Shown: piece after piece, positions 6,726 to 20,430 of the stretch
Position numbering within the stretch: the first letter of the stretch is position 1
Layout of the letters: each line of letters opens with the position of its first letter
IMG/VR virus record: IMGVR_UViG_3300002053_000078
Location: 1 to 21,792 of that record
From: a virus
Length of the DNA stretch: 21,792 bases
Direction: 5' to 3' (one strand)
Translations under genes and position numbers: made by a program
The notes under the pieces: generated by a model
What the model was told of the DNA's origin: nothing
What the model saw: the letters and a program-made list of their open reading frames with translations, nothing else
Database searches by the model: none

Positions 6726-6928
6726 CAGCCCTCCCGAAACTCCCCGCAGAACTCATCTGCGTCCATGACCGGCTGCACCCCGTAGTAGTATTCCCCGATC
6801 CGCATGCCGCCGGGCTTGTGTTTCCGGCAGAAGCCCGGCATCTCTTTCCCCTCCCGGTTCGGAATGAGAACAACGCTTGGGTGCCGGTTGTCCCACCACA
6901 TGCAGCATCGGCATCTATGCGTGATCAT
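6725..6928 (-). CDS. Small cysteine-rich protein, putative metal-binding
   Basis: A 67-residue protein. I chose the ATG at 6928 because it forms an ATGA overlap with the stop of the preceding transferase gene; a GTG at 6940 would add four residues. Cysteines fall at 6, 8, 9, 34 and 61, with His 4 and His 37: THRCRCCMWW, then FCRKH, then FCGEF. The arrangement could bind one zinc ion, but it is not a standard zinc ribbon. It contains Tyr-rich GEYYYGVQP in the C-terminal half. Similar small CxCC proteins occur in phage late operons without known function. Its retention between two structural or accessory genes suggests a conserved role. Confidence 0.65.
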   Translation of the reverse strand: MITHRCRCCMWWDNRHPSVVLIPNREGKEMPGFCRKHKPGGMRIGEYYYGVQPVMDADEFCGEFREG

Positions 6929-9009
6929 GGCTTCATCCACATGAACGAGGCTTCGCGCTTCTGGTCGGTGATAAAGAACTCGGTGATGCGGTGCGCCCTC
7001 ACATAGTCGTTAACTGCCGGGACGACGCCCGTCCGGTGCGAGCGGTCGTAATCGTGGCCGGAAACGATGCCGCCCCGCTTGACTTTCCTGCTCCAGAGAA
7101 TCAGGTCAAGCATCACGTTGTCATAGTCATGCGCGGCGTCGATGTAGACGAAATCCAGCGAGCCGTCCGGCACGTCCAGGCTAGCCTGGATACTGGTCTT
7201 CTTGATGATGATTGCATTGTACGGCGCGAGCCGCTTCCGGGCCGGGCCTTCCAGTTTCTTTGACCAGGATGTGCCCCAGTGGTCCACGCACAGCAGCTCG
7301 CAGCCCTCGATATGCTGTAGCATGTATTCGGCGTGCTCGCCCGCTGCTACCCCGATCTCCGCACCCTTCCGCAGCCCCATCAGGCTGATGAGTTTGGACA
7401 CATCGCCCCGGTGCATACCTTTGACCCGTACCGGCGCGGGCAGGAACCGCTCAAGCCCGTAGTGCTTTCGCAGCAGGCGGCAGAGCAGCGATAGCATCTC
7501 AGGCTCGGGGTTCCAGCCCAGCTTTTTGATCATGTGCGGCGGGCTGCCCCAGTGCCCGATGTTCTTGACCGTCAGGTTGCTCTGCCCAGCGTAGTATTCC
7601 TTCTTGAACCGCCCGTCCTGGCTGAAGTTCTTGCCGTGCCGGATGTCCACATTGGGCCGCTCGGATTCATATCTGTGCGTTCGCACACCTCGATAGAGTT
7701 CCGTCGACGGCTGGGCGTCTTTGTCCAGGGCCTTCTGCACCTGTTCCATCAGGTACTCGCGGTAAGCCACGAGCTGCGATAGCGGCCATTTGCCCCGCGC
7801 TTCCAAGTATTCGCTCTGGCCCGGTGCGTAGTAGTAGCGGTTCTGGTTGTACTCGATGCGCTCTTTGATGTCCGGGATATGGGCAAAGTGGGCCGGGGAG
7901 TAAGCGACATCGTGCTCGCACAGATAGACGACCGCGCCCTCAGGTGCGGCCTGGAGGCCCGTCATGATCTGCTCATAGATGCTCCGGTTGCAGCGGGGCT
8001 TTGGCCCGACGTTGATGTTTGTGCCAAAGCTCATGGGCTGCTGGCTCACGCTGATGATCGGGATCTGCCCGCCGGTCACTTTGAGCAGGTTCTTCTGGCA
8101 GGCCCGCATCAAGGCCGGGTCGATATGGTGGTCGGTGTAGTAGACGATCACGCGGCCGGTCTTGAACTCATCGGCCTGGTACGCTTCCCAGCCCGGCACC
8201 GGGGCGAACTTCTGGATGATCCAGGAGAAGGGCCGCGTTTGGTGCTCGAATGCGTTGTCGTTGAAGTAGTAGTTTTCCCGCGTGTACTTGTGCGCCCGGC
8301 CCACCTTGCGCCCATCCATCGGGTACGTGAACCCGCCCTCATCACGCCGGAACCAGTGGGCTTGCCAGGCCCGCTTGTTGAGGATCTGCGTGCCGCCGCA
8401 GAGCCAGGTTCGCAGACTGACCTCGATGCCGACGTTGCCCCAGCTCCCCACGCCCTCATCGAGCAGCCCGATCCAATCGTTCCAGTCCCGCCGGGTGAAC
8501 CAGCACGACCCCTGCCCGGTCATCACCTCCGGGTACTCCAGTTGCGCCTCTGGCCGCTTCCGGTAAGCGTTCCAGTAGTGGCAGTACAGGTCCAGGCCGA
8601 TGTGCATAAAGTGCGTTTTGCCGCGCGGCTTGTCCTGCCAGGTGTGGACGTTCAGGCGGCGCATCTCGGGCAGCACGATTGCCTGCGGCGGGCAGTGGCC
8701 TTTGAGCACTTCGTCGTAGCCGCGACTCATCAGGGCGTGGGCGTCAATCTTCATCACGAACTCGCCGCTTGATTCCCGCACCCCGAGGTTGTACCCGGCC
8801 CGCTGGCCAATGGACTCGTCAAGCTCGATGATCTTGACCCTCGGGTCGTCGCTCGCCACCATTGGCTCCTGGCCGGGGCCATCAACCACGGCCACAACCT
8901 CCACGTCACCCGTCGCCCGTTCCAAGGCGCTGTCGATGGTCTGCTGGAAGTACGGCTCGCAGCGGCCCGGAATGATGACAGACACGCGCCCCGGCACCAT
9001 CTCAGCCAT
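6925..9009 (-). CDS. Three-domain transferase: GalNAc-transferase-like GT-A domain, uncharacterised GT-like domain, SAM methyltransferase
   Basis: A 694-residue protein. Residues about 5-250 form a family-2/27-type GT-A domain: RVSVIIPGR at the start, a DxH metal site (D89-A-H91 in VMKIDAH), then [17 protein letters not shown] at 190-206 and the His of QAHWFRR at 218. This order matches the DxH, the WGGEN-E-S-R-W-CGG motif and the metal-binding H-x-F-R of polypeptide GalNAc-transferases. Residues about 285-480 look like a second GT-A-like domain of unknown specificity ([31 protein letters not shown]). Residues about 540-690 are a class I methyltransferase of the Methyltransf_24 type ([37 protein letters not shown]). 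The start overlaps the Ser-rich protein gene. Its likely role is to add and modify sugars, possibly on the neighbouring Ser-rich virion proteins; this is inference. Confidence 0.8.
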
Positions 9010-11122
9010 TGCAGATCAAGCTCCCGAACGCGATGCTGTGGATACCGGCAGACGATATGATGGGCATGGCGATAAGCCCAGGCCCGGACGGGCTTGTAGA
9101 CGGCGACGCGGACTCGCTGGCCGATGGGCTTGCGCTCTCCGATGCGCTCTCCGAAACGCTGGGGCTGGCACTCTCACTCGCACTTTCAGACACCGACGGG
9201 CTGGCTGATTCGCTGACCGACGGACTTGCAGACTCGGACACGGACGGCGAGACGGACTCTGACGCGCTTTCGCTGGCGCTTTCCGAGACACTGGGCGATG
9301 CCGACTCGCTGGCGCTCTCCGAAACGCTGGGCGATGCGGATTCCGAGACGCTGGGCGACGCCGATTCACTCGCGCTCTCTGAGACTGACGGCGAGGCCGA
9401 TTCCGAGACAGACGGTGATGCGGACTCAGAAGCCGACTCGCTGGCACTGGGCGACGCCCCTGCCGATGGAGACGCGGACTCTGAGGCAGACTCAGAGACT
9501 GAAGGTGATGCCGATTCTGATACCGAAGGACTGGCCGACTCAGATGCGCTCTCTGACGCCGATTCAGAAGCGGACTCTGACAGTGACGGGCTGGCTGATT
9601 CTGAAACACTGGGCGAGGCCGACTCGCTGGCAGACTCCGAGACGCTGGGGCTTGCAGATTCGGAGGCCGACTCGCTGACCGATGGGCTGGCACTCTCCGA
9701 CGCACTCTCAGAGACTGAGGGCGAAGCCGACTCGCTGACGCTTGGTGACGCTGACTCACTGGCGCTCTCGGAAACACTGGGACTCGCGGACTCACTGACA
9801 CTGGGCGATGCGGATTCACTGGCACTCTCAGACGCCGAGGGCGAACCCACGAACCGTAGCACCACGTCTTCGACGTACTCAACCGGCGGGGCTGATGGCG
9901 ATGCTGACTCAGAGACACTTTCAGACGCACTCTCACTCGCTGATTCGCTGGCGCTTTCCGATGCTGACTCAGACGCCGATTCACTGAGGCTCGGGCTGGC
10001 TGACTCACTCGCACTCTCTGAGGCCGATTCCGACGCACTCTCAGACGCGGATTCACTGGGCGACTCAGAAGCCGACTCGGATGCTGACTCAGACGCGCTC
10101 TCTGAGACGCTGGGTGACGCGCTTTCACTGGCTGACTCTGAGGCTGATTCGGAGGCCGACTCGGACGCCGATTCAGACGCACTGGGGCTGGACCCGGTGT
10201 AGTCAACCAGCAGATATGCCGCGTCAACGTCTGTCTGGTCACTGCTGTTGTCGTGCTCGATCCGCAGTTCAGCCCCGTCCACCTTGGCCCAGGTGTTGAG
10301 GATGCCTGAGACATCGACGTTCCGCCAGCCCCACACACCATCCCCGAACGCCCCCAGCCCCGCATCCGTCCAGTCGGTTCCGTCCCACAGCAGGAAGCTG
10401 TCACGGTCCACGCCCGAACTTGACCGGCCGTAGACGTACAGGGTGACGCTATTCAGGGTGTCCGTGTAGGGCCGGGCTGTGTCAGCAAAGCTCCAGTTCC
10501 CCTCGTGCGCCTTCTTTGTCGCCGTCCACACGTAGTCCGTGGGCTGGTTCTGGGTGCTGAGGTACGGGCTGTCGCCAACTTCGGTCCACCCCGTATCCGT
10601 GGCGTCAAAGCCGTTGACCCACAGCTCTTCGGTCGGGTCGTCGCCAAACTCCTCGATGTCTGCCGCCAGCCGCGCAATCTCTCGCGCCTTCGCCAGGATC
10701 ACCAGCAACCGATCCTTGCGGTCTTCGGCTATGATGAAGTCAAGGCTTTGAGCCTTCTGTAGTTCGTGCGCCTCCTTCTCCGGCAGCGTGAACTCTGCCA
10801 GGGCCGGGCATTCCAGCTTCTGTCTCTGGTCCTTTGTGCAGGCCTGCGGGAACTCCGCACAGGCTCGAGGGCGCGTCTCATAGATGGCGCAGCCGCCGTT
10901 TGGGTCTTTGGCGCGGTAGAACCGACAGGGGTGTTTCGGCGCTTTCACCGTGTCGGTCAGGTAGAACCCGGATCTGCGCGAGTCAGCGTCGTCGATGTAG
11001 CTGACCGCATTCAGGATGTCCAAGCGGCCCTGTTTGGCCCAACGCAGAACGTCACTATAGGCGACGTTCACGTTGACCGCCCAGCAGCACCAGCCACAGC
11101 CCGCACACAGATGCGCCGTCAT
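9002..11122 (-). CDS. YkgJ-type cysteine-cluster protein with a very long Ser-Ala-Ser-Glu repeat stalk
   Basis: A 706-residue protein. The ATG at 11122 overlaps the upstream stop as ATGA; an upstream in-frame start at 11188 lacks such support. Residues 6-13 carry CxxCxxCC (CAGCGWCC). A matching set of cysteines follows at 66 (PCRFY), 78, 88 (RPRAC) and 95, as in the YkgJ/CxxCxxCC family thought to bind zinc or an iron-sulfur cluster. A helical segment (about 115-160) leads to a beta-sandwich-like domain at about 165-310 ([34 protein letters not shown]). From about residue 312 the chain is almost only S/A/E/P/V repeats. It ends in a hydrophobic, Gly-rich tail, [14 protein letters not shown] then [13 protein letters not shown]. 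It is probably an extended virion fibre or displayed protein, and the repeat could be an O-glycosylation acceptor. Function unknown. Confidence 0.8.
9086..9841 (-). repeat. Ser-rich repeat block 2 ([12 protein letters not shown]-type units)
   Basis: About 250 codons of S-A-S-E and S-x-S-P-S-V-S-E units, with many 8- and 12-residue phases. Every second residue is serine. Serine is written with mixed codons (AGC, AGT, TCA, TCC, TCG, TCT), so the protein repeat is far cleaner than the DNA repeat. Ends just before the hydrophobic C-terminal tail. The antisense strand is also open through the array. Confidence 0.9.
9896..10186 (-). repeat. Ser-rich repeat block 1 (mostly SASE units)
   Basis: About 97 codons, dominated by plain S-A-S-E tetrapeptides with occasional SPSVSE and SPSLSE breaks. 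It is separated from block 2 by a non-repetitive island (9842-9895) encoding [16 protein letters not shown]. The unit mix differs between the two blocks, which suggests that two arrays of separate history were joined. Confidence 0.88.
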
Positions 11123-12375
11123 AGCGTGCTCGTCACCCGGATCTGGACGAACCCCAGGCTCATGAACGGGGCCACGTAGTCCTGCCATGCGGCGGCAGCA
11201 CAGGCCGCTGCCGTCGCGCCATGCCGGTAGTCCAGGTCCACGTCATCCCCTGGGGCGTAGTTGTTTTGTAGCAGTTCGCATGTCACGGTGTCCGTGAACA
11301 CCATCTCGCTGATCATGTACTCGGTGGATTCCAGGGCCAGGCGCTCGGTGTCTCCTGCACCGGGGTTCTCGATGGCCCCTGTCCCTGTCCAGTGGTTGAG
11401 GAACGTGCGGATGTTGGTTTCCAGCACGCCGGTCACATGGCCCCAGCACACGTCACCCGTCGGCCCCGGCGAGGGTGATGCTGACTCGCTGGCCGACTCG
11501 GACGCGCTTTCGGATGCAGACTCCGACGCCGACTCCGACGCTGACTCTGAGGCTGATTCTGACGCGCTCTCTGAGGCTGACGGTGAGACTGACTCACTGG
11601 CCGACTCCGAGACAGATTCCGACGCGCTCTCTGAGGCTGACTCGCTGAGACTCGGGCTGGCGGATTCGGAGGCGCTTTCACTTGACCCCTCTACTTCTGC
11701 CAAATCCTCCAGTTCTGCTTGTGATAGCACATAGTCGAATATGGCGAAGTGGGCGTAACTGCCGTGCCAGCGTCCGGTTGACGTTGTAGAGGCACCCAGG
11801 ACGCAATGGGCGCTGTTCAGCGCGCCGCTCCAGCTCCCTCCGCACGCATAAGTACCTCGCGTGGTGTTAAAGTGATATGCTGTCTGGTTGCCCGATTTGT
11901 CCCATGTGATGCCCAGGAAAAACCAGTCAGTCGTCGTGGTCGTTGTGGGTGCGCCATTCCACGTCCCGCCGCGCATGACTTCTTTGGCGAGGTTATCCGC
12001 TCCGCCATTGGGCAGCTTATAGGACTGAATGCAGTTGTCTGCATCGGCCCCGATTCGGAACGGGTTCCGCCAGTTGCCATCGGTCCAGACGCCGCTGTTG
12101 GCAACCCTAACCCAGCAAATCAGCGAGCCCAGCTCCGTGTCAAACACACTCGCCAGCGTTGCCGAATAGACATCAACGTAGTCGTTGGTGCCATCTGCCT
12201 GGGGTGCGGTGCTGCCGTCACCGATGCCGGGGCCTGTCGGCCAGGTGGACACGTCGCTGCTGTAGGTGCCGTCCTGGTTGCTGTCTACATAGCAATTCGC
12301 AGTTGTGCCGCTGGCCTCATTCAGCGGCCAGTAGGCTATCGGGCTGTACCCCAGCACCTTGTTGATGTAGCTCAT
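11119..12375 (-). CDS. LamG-like lectin protein with Ser-rich repeat and unknown C-terminal domain
   Basis: A 418-residue protein in three parts. Residues about 5-228 match a concanavalin A-like LamG/LamGL lectin domain: [44 protein letters not shown] and the ending [21 protein letters not shown] are typical of that family. Residues about 230-300 are [11 protein letters not shown] repeats. Residues about 303-418 form a compact mixed domain ([60 protein letters not shown]) that I do not recognise; it may be the virion attachment domain. The start is 3 bases after the beta-helix gene stop. Likely role: a virion-surface lectin binding host or environmental glycans, held on a flexible stalk. There is no signal peptide, so it acts as a virion part or inside the cell. 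Confidence 0.75.
11472..11688 (-). repeat. Ser-rich SASE repeat between lectin and C-terminal domains
   Basis: About 72 codons of S-A-S-E / S-V-S-E units with two SASPS or SVSPS breaks, joining two folded domains. It is the same repeat type as in the downstream neighbour gene but only one fifth as long. The closeness of two arrays of the same type gives a route for recombination between the genes. Confidence 0.9.
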
Positions 12376-13304: not shown

Positions 13305-14207
13305 TCAATCCCACTCGTACCCGAGCCGCGTCACCCAGTCGGTCGGGTCGTGTTTTCGCCACAACTCCACATGCTCGGGCCGGAAGTGCTCCTTCCAGCC
13401 GCCCGTCTTGCCCTTGCGAAACGTCGGGCTGTAGGGCCGCGCATCGTCCGCGACTTTCAGCAGGTATTCCGTCGCCTTGTTCAAGTCCTCCTGGAAAAAC
13501 GTGAGCTTGAGCCCCGCTGCCCTCGCCGTCCTGCCGTAGACGTACCGGATTACGAGCTGCGCGGTGTCAAACGCCTTATGCCGCATGTCCTCGTACCGCA
13601 GGGACAGCGTCCAGGTGCTTTTGAGCCAGCCTGCGTACAGCTCCCAGCGTTCGATAAGCCCCGCCCACGGCCCGAAGCCTGCGATCACGGCCCCCAGGAT
13701 TTCGTCAAAGTTGTCGTCCAGATGTTCCCGGATCTGCTCTGCGCCGGGATGGAACAGGATGTGCCCATTCTCGTCCAGTTCGCGTTTCGCGTTCAGGATG
13801 TGATACACCTGAGATACCGCAACGTCGCGGAGATCCCGGTAGACGAACACATGGGCAATCCCGTTGTCCCACAGCTTCTGTTCGATGTCCTCACGGTGGC
13901 CGGTGTGCGCTTTCAGGTACGTCCCCGGCCGCAGCTTGTCGAGCCGGGCGAACAGTTCATCGGTGTCGCTCCACTTGGTCGTCCAGGCGAACCCCTGAAA
14001 GCTACCCGCCCACGGCCTCGGCACCCACGCCGGCCCCTGGACGAACGGCAGCGACCAGCACCAGAGCAGGTGTAGCCCCGATTTCGGGAACCCGTTCAGG
14101 TACAGTTTGGGCGCGAGCGGCTCGTCGGCAGAAGGCAGGGGAGCAGCCTCGCCCCCCTGCCCGTTGCCCTTAGGCGTCAACGATTTCGTCCACGCTGGCG
14201 AGATCAC
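13305..14207 (-). CDS. PAPS-dependent sulfotransferase
   Basis: About 300 residues with all main sulfotransferase family 1 landmarks in order. The 5'-phosphosulfate loop is GFPKSGLHLL (39-48, Lys 42). A KAHTGH segment (99-104) holds a His at the catalytic-base position of KTH-type enzymes. The 3'-phosphate site is VFVYRDLRDVAVS (120-132, Arg 124, Ser 132). YEDMR is at 205-209, and the C-terminal PAPS loop is RKGKTGGWKEHF (264-275). It should move sulfate from PAPS to a hydroxyl or amino group in the cytoplasm; the acceptor is unknown, perhaps a glycan on virion proteins. The start is uncertain: GTG 14207 overlaps the decoration gene by 38 bases, TTG 14180 is possible, and a stem-loop (14134-14161) lies in this 5' stretch. 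The folded domain begins near residue 33. Confidence 0.85.
   Translation of the reverse strand: MISPAWTKSLTPKGNGQGGEAAPLPSADEPLAPKLYLNGFPKSGLHLLWCWSLPFVQGPAWVPRPWAGSFQGFAWTTKWSDTDELFARLDKLRPGTYLKAHTGHREDIEQKLWDNGIAHVFVYRDLRDVAVSQVYHILNAKRELDENGHILFHPGAEQIREHLDDNFDEILGAVIAGFGPWAGLIERWELYAGWLKSTWTLSLRYEDMRHKAFDTAQLVIRYVYGRTARAAGLKLTFFQEDLNKATEYLLKVADDARPYSPTFRKGKTGGWKEHFRPEHVELWRKHDPTDWVTRLGYEWD
14134..14161 (-). other. GC-rich inverted repeat, possible attenuator or mRNA-stabilising hairpin
   Basis: Perfect 8-bp arms GGCAGGGG / CCCCTGCC separate a 12-base loop. The hairpin lies 8 bases after the decoration gene stop, at the boundary between the head core and the accessory island. No U-run follows on the transcribed strand, so a simple intrinsic terminator is unlikely. 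It could reduce read-through or protect the upstream capsid mRNA 3' end, or be chance in GC-rich DNA. Confidence 0.35.
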
Positions 14208-14631: not shown

Positions 14632-15804
14632 CTAGTCCGTGGTGTTGAGCAGCGCGACGAACGGCGACACCTGATTGGTCGTGTCGATGTAAATCGGCGC
14701 GCTCAAGCAGGGCTGCCCGTCGGTGCGGAACACGAACCGCCAGGTCGTCAGGTCCGAAGTGAAGGCGTAATGCTGGGACACGTCGATGGTGAGGCCGCTC
14801 CGGTCGTAGATGTAGTAGTAGCTGAAGTCGCAGAGCATCACGTCGCCCGTCGTGCCCAACGCAGGCGTCTTCTCGGTCCAAATGACCGGGATTCCGTACA
14901 GGCGCAGGGGCATCGCTGCCGTGGCGTCCGGCCCCCAGATGTAATTGGTGCCGTCGCCCAGCGCCAGGATGAATTCCATGCAGGTCTGGTTGATGACCCA
15001 CACGGCGTTACCGATACTGGTCGGCAGGAAGATGGCAAGCAGGGAGTGGATGTCGTTCGCGCTCACCTGGTTCGCCACGTCCCGAGCCGTGGTCAGCAGC
15101 GCACCGGAGTTCAGCACCCCGAGCGGCTGGCCGACGCCTGTGCCGCGCAGGTAGGCGTAGTCACGCCGCCACCGCACGGCCCCGCCGAACAACTGGCGCA
15201 GCAGCGCATCGAGGGCGATGGCGCTGTCTGCCAGAAGCTCGTCACTGGCCTGGGTGTACCCGGCCAGCTTGTGGGCGACCAGCTCAAGCTGCTTGAAGTC
15301 AGGCTCCGTCGAGGTTTTGCCCGCCGCCTCTTCCGTCCAGTAGCTCAACACCCCGCCGTAGTAGTTCGGCTTGCCGTAGGCGGCAAACGCCCCGGTCTGG
15401 TCAAGCACCGGGATCTGGATGCTGCGCCTATTACCGGGAATCTTCCGGGCGCGGGGATAGACCACTTCGGAGAAGGGGTCGCCCACAGCAACCAGGTCAG
15501 CCAGGAACTCGACCGGCACGAGGTATCCGCCCTCGGCCCCGGTCTGCTCCACCATCGTGTCCTTCCTGGCGCTGCCGTAGACCGCCTTCATCCGCTTTTC
15601 GTCGCGCCGGCTCACGCAGAGCAGCCAATCGCCAAAGCTCTTGCTGCCCTCCAGTTTGCCAAGCGCGTCCTCTACGCTGTATCCACCCTTCTGCAAGGGC
15701 TCCTCGTCGCGCAGCGCCTTGAGCACCGCGTCAACGATTGCGGGCGTGATTGCCTCGCCCAGTGCGGAGGTGTCCAGCGTTTGAACCTCTTGCTTCTCAG
15801 CCAT
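14632..15804 (-). CDS. Major capsid protein from internal start (HK97 fold)
   Basis: An in-frame ATG at 15804 (codon 337 of the fusion) is preceded by GGAGGT with 7-base spacing, the best ribosome binding site in the head region. Initiation here gives a 390-residue capsid protein beginning MAEKQEVQTLDTSALGEAIT, a normal length for an HK97-type protein with its scaffolding delta-domain (about residues 1-80, acidic and helical). Maturation cleavage would then fall before the region of GAEGGYLVP. A virion needs hundreds of capsid subunits but few proteases, so I infer that most capsid protein comes from this start and a minority from the fusion. Mass spectrometry or N-terminal sequencing of virions would show which is true. 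Confidence 0.75.
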   Translation of the reverse strand: MAEKQEVQTLDTSALGEAITPAIVDAVLKALRDEEPLQKGGYSVEDALGKLEGSKSFGDWLLCVSRRDEKRMKAVYGSARKDTMVEQTGAEGGYLVPVEFLADLVAVGDPFSEVVYPRARKIPGNRRSIQIPVLDQTGAFAAYGKPNYYGGVLSYWTEEAAGKTSTEPDFKQLELVAHKLAGYTQASDELLADSAIALDALLRQLFGGAVRWRRDYAYLRGTGVGQPLGVLNSGALLTTARDVANQVSANDIHSLLAIFLPTSIGNAVWVINQTCMEFILALGDGTNYIWGPDATAAMPLRLYGIPVIWTEKTPALGTTGDVMLCDFSYYYIYDRSGLTIDVSQHYAFTSDLTTWRFVFRTDGQPCLSAPIYIDTTNQVSPFVALLNTTD

Positions 15805-16812
15805 TGTTTGTACCTCCGTAGGTTTCAAGATTGAGCCTTCCGGCTTCCCAACACTGGCTTCGCCGTCGCCTTCCGTCGCACTGGCCGCCGATGTCTCTGT
15901 TACATCGGCCTCTGGCAGCAATGCCTTGACCGCCGGTTCGGTTTCTGCCAACGAACGCAACGCCTGGACCCCCAGCGTCCTGGGTTCGCATGGCGTAGGC
16001 GTCAAACTGAACTCCACAACAGGCCAGGACCGGATGGCCCCACCCTTGTCCACATCCACGAGATGCCCGACGCTGCCCGAGGACCATCCCAACACGCCCT
16101 TGTCAGCCAGCTCCAGTAATGCCTCGCGGTACTTTTCAGCGCGGTCCAACTGGGCCTCAATCCACAGCCCTATATCATCCGGCACCTTCGTGACGACCTG
16201 GCCCACGACGCTTTTCATCACCGCGTCGTCCAACCCGTGCTGGTACAGGACCATCGGCGTCTCAGTCAGCCGGTCAAACCAGAAGTCGGTGTCCGGTGTG
16301 AAGTGCTCGCCATCGAGATCTTGGCCGCCCCACACGATGCCGTATCCGGCCAGGACTGGAGCACCGTCCCGCGCCTTGACCTGGGCAACTTCCCAGGCCT
16401 TGGCCGGGACGTCCATGCCTTCGGCCTCGTACAGGGCGCGGAGTTTGCGGATGGCCTCCTGTTTCCCTGGCCCCTCATAGCGGTTGCCCCGGTAGCCCTG
16501 GTGGAGCGCAGCCCACGCCGCGCCCATCAGTCGATGGTCCGGCTTGCCGTCCACGCCCCTGACGCGGAGGTGCCACGTCGTCACCTGCTCCGGGTCTTCC
16601 ACGACGAGATAGTGGCTGGCCGGGTGCTCGCCGTCAGCCTCGCGCTTGCGGACCTGGGCATTGATCGCCTTCTCCTCGTGGGCCTCCGCGTACATCCGCG
16701 CACAGATGGCCACGGCCTGGTCCTGGTCCTCTGCCGTCTCATCTTCCAGCACAACCGGGATGCACCGTTCCATCCACTCGTCTCTCGATTCGCCTTCCCT
16801 CACATCTGGCAT
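14632..16812 (-). CDS. Prohead protease fused to HK97-type major capsid protein
   Basis: A single 726-codon frame holds two genes' worth of protein. Residues 1-145 hold an N-terminal extension (MPDVREGESRDEW; MGAAWAALHQGYRGNRYEGP; KLRALYEAEGMDVP) of a kind I associate with fused or long prohead proteases. Residues about 150-285 are the U35-type serine protease: the likely triad is His 192 (LYQHGLD), Ser 244 or 245 (GWSSGSVGH) and Glu 267 (VVEFSLTPTP). An Ala/Glu linker (286-336) leads to the capsid part: a helical scaffold-like segment, GAEGGYLVPVEFLADLV at 425-441, then RGTGVGQPLGVLNSGALLT, typical of the HK97 fold. The protease would mature the prohead from inside. There is no stop between the domains, but a strong internal start exists at codon 337 (listed separately). 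Confidence 0.9.
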   Translation of the reverse strand: MPDVREGESRDEWMERCIPVVLEDETAEDQDQAVAICARMYAEAHEEKAINAQVRKREADGEHPASHYLVVEDPEQVTTWHLRVRGVDGKPDHRLMGAAWAALHQGYRGNRYEGPGKQEAIRKLRALYEAEGMDVPAKAWEVAQVKARDGAPVLAGYGIVWGGQDLDGEHFTPDTDFWFDRLTETPMVLYQHGLDDAVMKSVVGQVVTKVPDDIGLWIEAQLDRAEKYREALLELADKGVLGWSSGSVGHLVDVDKGGAIRSWPVVEFSLTPTPCEPRTLGVQALRSLAETEPAVKALLPEADVTETSAASATEGDGEASVGKPEGSILKPTEVQTMAEKQEVQTLDTSALGEAITPAIVDAVLKALRDEEPLQKGGYSVEDALGKLEGSKSFGDWLLCVSRRDEKRMKAVYGSARKDTMVEQTGAEGGYLVPVEFLADLVAVGDPFSEVVYPRARKIPGNRRSIQIPVLDQTGAFAAYGKPNYYGGVLSYWTEEAAGKTSTEPDFKQLELVAHKLAGYTQASDELLADSAIALDALLRQLFGGAVRWRRDYAYLRGTGVGQPLGVLNSGALLTTARDVANQVSANDIHSLLAIFLPTSIGNAVWVINQTCMEFILALGDGTNYIWGPDATAAMPLRLYGIPVIWTEKTPALGTTGDVMLCDFSYYYIYDRSGLTIDVSQHYAFTSDLTTWRFVFRTDGQPCLSAPIYIDTTNQVSPFVALLNTTD
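15812..15817 (-). promoter_or_regulatory. Internal ribosome binding site inside the protease-capsid ORF
   Basis: The coding strand reads GGAGGT, 7 bases, ATG (15804). The site lies within the fused ORF and encodes T-E-V in the linker. A perfect Shine-Dalgarno at an ideal distance from an in-frame ATG, exactly at the domain boundary, is unlikely by chance. Confidence 0.75.
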
Positions 16813-16816
16813 TGTC

Positions 16817-17278
16817 TCACCATCCCATTCTAGCCAGGATCGTATTCACCATCCTGTCAATCACGCCGGATCTCACCACCTGGTCAATCGCCTTTTTGTC
16901 TGTCATCCAGCCGTGTCGCTTGTGGGCCTCGGCCTGGTCCTTCGCGCTGTGAACCCATCCGGCATAGCTGGCGATGTTCCCGAGAATCGTCCCGGTCGTG
17001 CCTGACTGCCGGAACCCCCACCGGCGGCCTAGCGTCTCGCTGGTCTTGCTGCCGCCGATAGAGCCATCCACCCGCATCCAGCGAGGGCCATAGCCGCGTT
17101 CGTACCAGCGGCTTCGCGGTCCCGCGGGCCGGTTGCCCGCTGTCGCTGCTGGATACGGCGCGATCTTGTCCTGCACCTCAGCCGCGACTGCCCGCGTCAG
17201 CCCCCGCATCTGCCGATTGAACGTCTCCGCATCCAGCTTCTTTTGCAGTTGTTCCAGACCCCGGATCTCAATCCGCAC
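16817..17278 (-). CDS. HK97 gp10-like phage protein (neck / tail completion family)
   Basis: 153 residues from GTG 17278, which has GAGG 7 bases upstream; a TTG at 17284 would add two residues but sits too close to that Shine-Dalgarno. It begins MRIEIRGLEQLQKKLDAETF, the standard opening of HK97 gp10-like proteins (a short strand, then G-L-x-x-L-x-x-K-L). A helix with AVAAEVQDKIAPYP follows, then a Gly/Arg/Tyr-rich loop (RWYERGYGPRW), then a second helix with YAGWVHSAKDQAEAH, and a C-terminal helix. Family members join head to tail. It lies between portal and protease-capsid instead of after the connector gene, which is unusual. A minor-head-protein role is possible. Confidence 0.68.
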   Translation of the reverse strand: MRIEIRGLEQLQKKLDAETFNRQMRGLTRAVAAEVQDKIAPYPAATAGNRPAGPRSRWYERGYGPRWMRVDGSIGGSKTSETLGRRWGFRQSGTTGTILGNIASYAGWVHSAKDQAEAHKRHGWMTDKKAIDQVVRSGVIDRMVNTILARMGW

Positions 17279-19219: not shown

Positions 19220-19771
19220 CTATCTCCGAAACGCCGCGACGCTGCCCTTCACGCCCAGGCGCTGCCAATCACCCATTTCTGCATCCACAACCATCGTCAC
19301 GGCAGGCCACCGGGCCGAGCCGTAGTCGTCAAACGCCATCACGCCACCCGGCACGACACGCGGCTTCCAGGCCGCGATGTCAGCCGCCAGCGCCTGCGGC
19401 GTATGCCCGCCGTCCACAAACACGAGGGCCACGTTCCCCACGAACCCCGGCACCGCCGCCGTGTCGCCCTTGACGAGGTGGACGTGCAAATCGCCAGCGA
19501 ACTGCTTGGCCACCTTCACAGGGCTGGGCCGTGGGCCGGCCTTCCGCTTGGCGTCCGGTCCCTCCTGGTAGTTGTCAATCGTCACGACCATGCGGTTTGG
19601 CGCAGCCCTGTGCAGCAGCATCGCGCTCCGGCCCTGGTACGTGCCCAGGTCCACCAACCAGCCCGGAGGCACGGTCTGGACGAGCTGCGCCAGGTACGCC
19701 AGTCCCGCCGCGTTCGTCTTGCCCGGAACCTGAGCGCAGAGCAGCAACCCCAACTCCAGATAGTTCATCAT
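19220..19771 (-). CDS. Class I SAM-dependent methyltransferase (CmcI/TylF-like), accessory
   Basis: 183 residues from ATG 19771, which overlaps the glycosyltransferase stop (ATGATGA). Longer in-frame reading upstream only covers the neighbour gene. Motif I is WLVDLGTYQGRSAML (38-52), an acidic residue after strand 2 is VTIDNY (63-68), and the pair VFVDGGHTPQALAADI (117-132) plus PGGVMAFDDYG (140-150) follows. The DGGH and DDYG elements are typical of Methyltransf_24, CmcI and TylF/MycF-type enzymes, several of which O-methylate sugars with a bound metal. Directly following a glycosyltransferase, it probably methylates a sugar or glycan. The Shine-Dalgarno of the portal gene lies within its last codons. 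The acceptor is unknown. Confidence 0.82.
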   Translation of the reverse strand: MMNYLELGLLLCAQVPGKTNAAGLAYLAQLVQTVPPGWLVDLGTYQGRSAMLLHRAAPNRMVVTIDNYQEGPDAKRKAGPRPSPVKVAKQFAGDLHVHLVKGDTAAVPGFVGNVALVFVDGGHTPQALAADIAAWKPRVVPGGVMAFDDYGSARWPAVTMVVDAEMGDWQRLGVKGSVAAFRR

Positions 19772-20430
19772 AGTGATGCGTAGTATTTGAGCCCGGCCCG
19801 CCGAGCCCTGGTGAAATAATGCCGGACGATCCGACCCTGGTTGTTGTTGTATTGGTTCGGCAAGATGTGAATCCGCACTGGCGACCGCACGAGTGCACGC
19901 ATCAACGCCGCCTGGTCCCACTCTGCCCACCGGGACCATTCCCGCCGCCACTCCTCAAAGAAGGCATGGACAGCCGCCGACTTCTGAAACGCCATGACGC
20001 CGCCTTGGAGTGCCAGCAGGTCATCCCCGCCCAGTTCTGCGAGCGTCTGCAACCGCTCCTCCGTGCCGACGTGTCCAAACACGCCCTCCCGCTGCCGCAG
20101 ACAGGGTACAATGGCCATGTCCCACCCGTCGTCCAGGATGCCGAACAGCGGCTTGACGGGCCCGCCGATGCGGGTGTCCGCGTCCAGGTAGATCGTCTGG
20201 TCCCACGGACTGAGCTTGTCAATCTGCAACTTCACGGCCCGCGCCCACAGCTCCACGTCTGGATGGATCATCGTCCTGAACGCCGGCCAGTTCCTAGGAC
20301 GCTCCAACCCACGGTCGGAGATGACGACCACAGGCAGTCAACGGTGCTGCTCGCCCAGGCTCTTGATGCTCAGGAGCACCTGCGCCCTGGCCTGCTCCCC
20401 ATAGGCGACGTACAGCACGCCGCGACTCAT
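19768..20430 (-). pseudogene. GT-A glycosyltransferase interrupted by an in-frame TGA at codon 31
   Basis: The gene begins at ATG 20430, with GGAGGTG just upstream and an ATGA overlap with the previous stop. It reads MSRGVLYVAYGEQARAQVLL, then SIKSLGEQHR, then TGA (20338-20340), then L-P-VVVISDRGLERP in the same frame. The upstream part supplies the first strand and helix of a GT-A fold (VLYVAYG), and the downstream part the second strand. The rest is intact: IYLDADTRIG has a D-x-D metal site at about 83-85, followed by LQGGVMAFQKSAAVHAFFEEW and WDQAALMRALV, then PNQYNN. It resembles GT8-like nucleotide-sugar transferases. Either the gene is dead, or the TGA (followed by C, a leaky context) is read through, or translation restarts at GTG 20331, which has no clear Shine-Dalgarno sequence. 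A sequencing error is possible. Confidence 0.75.

Follow-up and report, generated by a model that had tools for sequence, protein, structure and literature searches.

Does an open reading frame (ORF) that encodes both a prohead protease and a major capsid protein yield one protein or two? This question is raised by a gene in a 21,792-base IMG/VR virus record, the whole of which was analysed and is called the window here. Fusions of a protease with a capsid protein are already known (PMC9671004, PMC9753647, PMC8601537, PMC6563490, PMC8306868; also NF045541). The fusion of Pseudomonas phage PAJU2 has been suggested to be a self-cleaving polyprotein, according to the citation of that suggestion in PMC8306868. 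In the initial annotation of the window, a dual start was proposed, with an internal ribosome binding site between the two domains.

Organization of the fused gene

The head and tail genes of the window are located on the minus strand. The fused gene and its parts are as follows.

14632–16812, minus strand: fused ORF of 726 aa, comprising an N-terminal motif, an accessory domain, a prohead protease treated as S78-type, a linker and an HK97-fold capsid protein
16816–16821, minus strand: Shine-Dalgarno (SD)-like GGTGAG of the upstream (fusion) start, SD dG -10.7
16678–16812, minus strand: aa 1–45, Cys-containing N-terminal motif (MPDVREGESRDEWMERC...AIC), read from the ORF translations
16384–16641, minus strand: aa 58–143, protease-associated accessory domain, with a phrog_19463 match at aa 50–120
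15970–16380, minus strand: aa 145–281, prohead protease domain by domain profile, with invariant His192 and Ser244
15643–15969, minus strand: aa 282–390, poorly conserved 109-aa linker and start of the capsid N-terminal (scaffolding-like) region
15812–15817, minus strand: internal SD GGAGGT, dG -10.9
15802–15804, minus strand: internal start codon ATG, codon 337, in frame
14632–15804, minus strand: putative free capsid protein of 390 aa, translated from codon 337
14692–15531, minus strand: aa 428–707, HK97-fold capsid core (PF05065, Pfam Phage_capsid, E 2.7e-41)

The protease and capsid domains share one frame without a stop codon between them, and the next ORF upstream stops 4 bases ahead of the fusion start at 16812. 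The capsid domain passed the cut-offs for HK97-fold major capsid proteins, both with PF05065 (142 bits, cut-off 24.2) and with TIGR01554, which covered aa 393–707 (205 bits, cut-off 27.5). A stretch that looked similar by eye to the accessory domain was present in the separate S78 protease of locus L144.

The window protein alone scored below the curated cut-offs for S78 proteases (PF04586, 15.1 bits, cut-off 21; TIGR01543, 21.6 bits, cut-off 59). PF04586 was matched at E<=1 by 17 of 24 aligned homologous domains, the best with an E value of 5.2e-8, and matches to the head maturation protease families phrog_80 and phrog_7015 were obtained. His192 and Ser244 (columns H48 and S100 of alignment A3) were invariant among the 24 homologues, and an invariant His/Ser pair with the identical spacing of 52 was found in the PAJU2 and Microbacterium/Curtobacterium proteins. 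These residues might form the catalytic pair, and the domain was treated as a divergent S78-type protease. A profile search found no solved structure for the protease domain, and AlphaFold2 run on a 10-sequence alignment of the fusion returned an unusable model (pLDDT 38).

Elsewhere in the window, two adjacent ORFs with long Ser-rich SASES/SASPS repeats were observed (9002–12375), one with a Cys-rich N-terminus (CAGCGWCC...) and the other with an N-terminus of LamG-type appearance. The head and tail genes are also interspersed with a sulfotransferase (PF00685) and with ORFs that look like glycosyltransferases and methyltransferases (13305–14207, 6925–9009 and 19220–20331), which suggests modification of virion or surface glycans.

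The proposed internal start in the window

According to the initial annotation, GGAGGT followed after 7 bases by ATG sits precisely between the protease and the capsid protein of a single frame. The frame and the motif were confirmed: codon 337 (15804) is preceded by CCTACGGAGGTACAAACA-ATG, i.e. GGAGGT at a spacing of 7, in frame. The site follows the protease domain and precedes the capsid domain, 54 aa ahead of the conserved capsid block; it does lie between the domains, but inside the 109-aa linker and not at the edge of a folded domain. Judged by its position, the ATG is at the point where a stand-alone capsid protein with an N-terminal scaffolding region would begin.

The internal SD was the strongest among all 313 coding-strand ATGs of the window, and the 70-nt fold at the internal ATG (-10.0 kcal/mol) was reached by only 2% of window positions. 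The upstream and internal starts were nearly equal in SD energy (-10.7 vs -10.9) and in accessibility measured as folding (-11.1 vs -10.0), and the proposal that the fusion is a minor product thus found no support in the sequence. The motif as such was not significant within the window, as GGAGGT-N4-10-ATG was expected 1.37 times and was present in 79% of shuffles; the case for the internal start must therefore rest on conservation. It is the position, frame and conservation of the site that go beyond chance, not the motif itself.

Conservation among fused relatives

Loci from a viral contig collection were sorted with profiles of both domains, which yielded 39 fused genes and 16 loci with a separate protease ORF; the other loci had no detectable protease of the window type. 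Removal of near-duplicates left 26 fused genes as the set for statistics. Locus L002, which looks fused but whose protease was missed by the profile, was excluded from this set; its linker site is weaker (GAGG, spacing 8).

An in-frame ATG was present in the linker of all 26 non-redundant fused relatives, 45–84 aa before the capsid block, and was typically preceded at 4–11 nt by GGAGG(T), AGGAGG or AAGGAG. With a strong SD defined as dG<=-8, ATGs carrying a strong SD were far more frequent in linkers (25/69) than in the protease and capsid domains (5/283; p 2e-15). The strong SD was tied to ATG codons and not to linker composition, since only 163 of 2555 other linker codons had one (p 1e-12). 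When the genes were shuffled synonymously, with protein and codon usage kept, a strong-SD site was expected in 10.1 genes and was observed in 21 of the 26 (combined p 0.0015; this and the other combined p-values ignore the relatedness of the sequences and therefore overstate the significance). The weakest cases were L148 and L149 and, outside this set, the Microbacterium cluster EE, with only poor SDs (-4.9 and -5.8).

Folding provided a test that is independent of the SD. In 40-nt windows, the folding energy was about -9 to -10 kcal/mol at 75–90 nt upstream, -3.5 at the ATG and about -8 at 45 nt downstream, and the low-structure dip extended from roughly -60 to +15 nt relative to the ATG. Structure at the ATG was weaker than elsewhere in the gene in 25 of the 26 fused relatives and weaker than in synonymous shuffles in 23 (combined p, with the same overstatement, 4e-7 for folding and 2e-12 for GC); the synonymous bias against structure was absent from L158 and L174. 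The internal site is AT-rich (GC 0.47 vs 0.64), and codon choice around the internal ATG is biased towards weak structure and low GC.

The open frame and the internal ribosome binding site were thus conserved jointly. The median protein identity of the linker was only 17%, versus 35–39% for the protease and capsid domains, and the start persisted regardless. Even in the closest relative (L009, 74% capsid identity) the linker had been rewritten and CGGAGG...ATG was kept. The product of the internal start, 390 aa in the window, had a median length of 390.5 aa among the fused relatives, and the capsid proteins of separate-gene relatives measured 378–391 aa.

Other fusion families

In ORF003 of PAJU2, AGGAGGGCAACGAC-ATG was found at codon 197, between the S78 protease and the capsid protein. 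From the viral contig collection, 68 fused relatives of this family were recovered, 30 of them non-redundant, and the boundary ATG as well as weak folding was present in 30/30, a set with a slight retrieval bias because one of the six search peptides spanned the site. The SD was weakly stronger than the synonymous expectation (p 0.03). Among nine naturally split PAJU2-type homologues, the ATG of the capsid ORF coincided with the equivalent site or was only a few residues away in eight, with an N-terminus of the M-K-T-x-A-E-Q-I type; in the split homologue L229 the ATG was absent at the equivalent point. Moraxella phage Mcat7 has two CDSs with a 4-nt overlap, and its capsid protein begins with MNFQEQ, the ATG again being located at or within a few residues of the PAJU2-type site.

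The Arthrobacter, Gordonia, Streptomyces, Curtobacterium and Lactococcus fusions examined showed a GAAGGA-like purine-rich motif and ATG, GTG or TTG just ahead of the conserved NVFD block. A boundary start codon and weak folding were each observed in 13/13 members of this actinophage/Lactococcus family (combined synonymous p 8e-6, likewise overstated), and the SD was not stronger than the synonymous expectation (p 0.68). The purine-rich motif of the actinophage and PAJU2 families is partly due to conserved amino acids (E-G). In Nocturne116, codon 145 is the ATG of AAAAGGAAAATGAAAAT-ATG, and its fold was weaker than that of any other ATG examined; the Microbacterium cluster EE has the boundary ATG with a weak SD. 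All fusion records inspected were annotated as one CDS. In Gordonia phage EpicDab, gp9 (L191; PMC9671378) is a fusion whose protease and capsid domains follow an N-terminal segment of 116 aa, in which two TM helices are predicted; a strong internal SD was not seen at its capsid boundary.

The search for fused relatives without an internal ribosome binding site thus favoured the dual start of the initial annotation, which is strongly supported by the linker ATG in all 26 relatives of the window gene, the strong SD in 21 of them and the recurrence of the layout in other fusion families.

Several other candidates were rejected as fusions. No protease was detected in the long open upstream frames of L105, L090, L035, L091 and L077. 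Whole-ORF tblastn matches in Caulobacter, Streptomyces and Streptococcus phages aligned on the capsid part, and the protease gene was separate in the Caulobacter and Streptomyces phage records that were opened. Salinibacter phages matched in the protease region, but there the region belongs to another large ORF, immediately ahead of a further gene: in phage 5_12 (L005, 1105–3909), a protease related to that of the window occupies the C-terminal part of a 934-aa ORF and the next large ORF follows directly. The match recurred across 184 Salinibacter phage records.

Fused and separate arrangements

In the capsid tree, fused and separate states were intermixed, and the fused state needs at least three changes on well-supported branches. 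In L129, L130, L136, L138, L141 and L142, protease and capsid lie in the same frame and are divided by a single stop codon 2–3 codons before the capsid ATG. The capsid proteins of the fused L038 and of L144, whose separate protease was missed by the fused-family profile, are 81% identical, indicating that fusion at the capsid start can occur anew. The simplest route between the two states would be the gain or loss of a stop codon beside a capsid start that is kept.

The N-terminal motif of the window protein (aa 1–45) resembled the capsid ORF N-termini of relatives with separate genes (L081–L088). In L081, L082, L084, L086, L087 and L088, the capsid ORF opens with such a Cys-containing module, after which an SD-like motif and an ATG at codon ~60 precede the capsid. 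The capsid genes of these loci are possibly another two-start gene.

Discussion

The gene very probably has two translation starts in one frame, from which a free capsid protein and a capsid subunit tagged with the protease would be made. Translation from the upstream start at 16812 would give the full-length protease-capsid fusion, and translation from the internal start at 15804, with its own ribosome binding site, would give an ordinary capsid protein of 390 aa. Because there is no stop codon between the domains, any protease made from the upstream start would always be attached to a capsid subunit; a protease available only as a fusion, together with the internal start, would lead to both products unless proteolysis intervenes. 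The capsid part of the fusion would act as a tag that carries the protease into the procapsid by co-assembly, and the fusion might thereby be built into the shell. Inside the procapsid, the protease would cleave the N-terminal regions from the capsid subunits and also remove the link by which it is itself attached.

Comparable gene arrangements exist for scaffolds. In lambda C/Nu3, one frame with an in-frame internal start encodes a fusion of protease and assembly protein and the free assembly protein. Herpesvirus UL26/UL26.5 encodes a protease-scaffold fusion and the free scaffold from the same C-terminal frame, UL26.5 being made from its own transcript. HK97 gp4 and gp5 are two separate genes, unlike the one fused frame of the window. 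The window gene is similar to C/Nu3 in that a conserved in-frame ribosome binding site and start lie at the boundary of a protease fused to a head-assembly protein, with a free partner predicted from the same frame; the shared C-terminal part is, however, the scaffold in lambda and the major capsid protein in the window. With UL26/UL26.5 it would share the protease fusion, the free partner and the common C-terminal frame, but the herpesvirus internal product has its own transcript and is a scaffold, not a shell protein. The protease types also differ, as lambda gpC is an S49-type peptidase (lambda gene identities, PMC10695390) and that of the window is S78-type. PAJU2 ORF003, the 'prohead protease fused capsid protein', likewise combines an S78 protease and a capsid protein in one ORF with a boundary SD-ATG, but belongs to another family, is annotated as one CDS and was published as a self-cleaving polyprotein. 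The fusions of NF045541 (prohead protease/MCP fusion) have the domain order of the window and a boundary start codon, but are annotated as a single product, and the window protein gave no hit to the model at E<=0.01. Dual-start logic is thus known for scaffolds; a search of the literature, with most subscription journals outside its coverage, found descriptions of the fusions but none of such a start for the capsid protein.

If the PAJU2 reading applied here, only the full-length polyprotein would be translated from a single start, the protease would cleave itself off, protease and capsid would be made 1:1 and the internal SD-ATG would be incidental. The annotation of every inspected fusion as one CDS and the chance expectation of the motif in the window agree with this. 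A polyprotein does not, however, predict an ATG in every fused relative, the enrichment of strong SDs in linkers, the dip in structure or the synonymous codon bias, nor that split homologues start at the same site, and we regard it as improbable. The fusion might also be a relic of stop loss between adjacent genes, in which the old capsid ribosome binding site makes all the working capsid protein and the fusion merely supplies protease. The intermixed states in the capsid tree, the same-frame neighbours with a single stop (L129, L136, L141), the L038/L144 pair, Mcat7 and the nine split PAJU2-type homologues all fit such an origin, yet it yields the same two products and, on the premise that only the separate products counted, does not account for an open frame kept through linkers this divergent. 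As a full account it is very unlikely.

Finally, a promoter inside the gene could give rise to a second, shorter mRNA for the free capsid protein, as with UL26.5, the internal ribosome binding site being used only on that mRNA. The site would be conserved either way, and its AT-richness is compatible with a promoter reading, but the low-structure dip (about -60 to +15 nt) has the extent seen at ribosome binding sites. We regard a shorter mRNA as extremely unlikely. Two starts on one frame remain our preferred reading. It is also rather probable that tailed-phage protease-capsid fusions in general, in at least four families, are two-product genes, in which the fusion is a protease-tagged subunit and the true major capsid protein, starting inside the ORF, is unannotated; the tag would deliver the protease by co-assembly.

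Hundreds of sequenced phages have a protease-capsid fusion gene that is annotated as one product. Use of the internal start would mean that their major capsid protein is wrongly annotated, that two ribosome binding sites determine the protease-to-capsid ratio and that the protease enters the procapsid within one of its building blocks, whereas the polyprotein reading of PAJU2 implies one protease per shell subunit. A two-start gene would also make it easy to pass from the fused to the separate arrangement or back, by one stop codon gained or lost beside a start that is kept.
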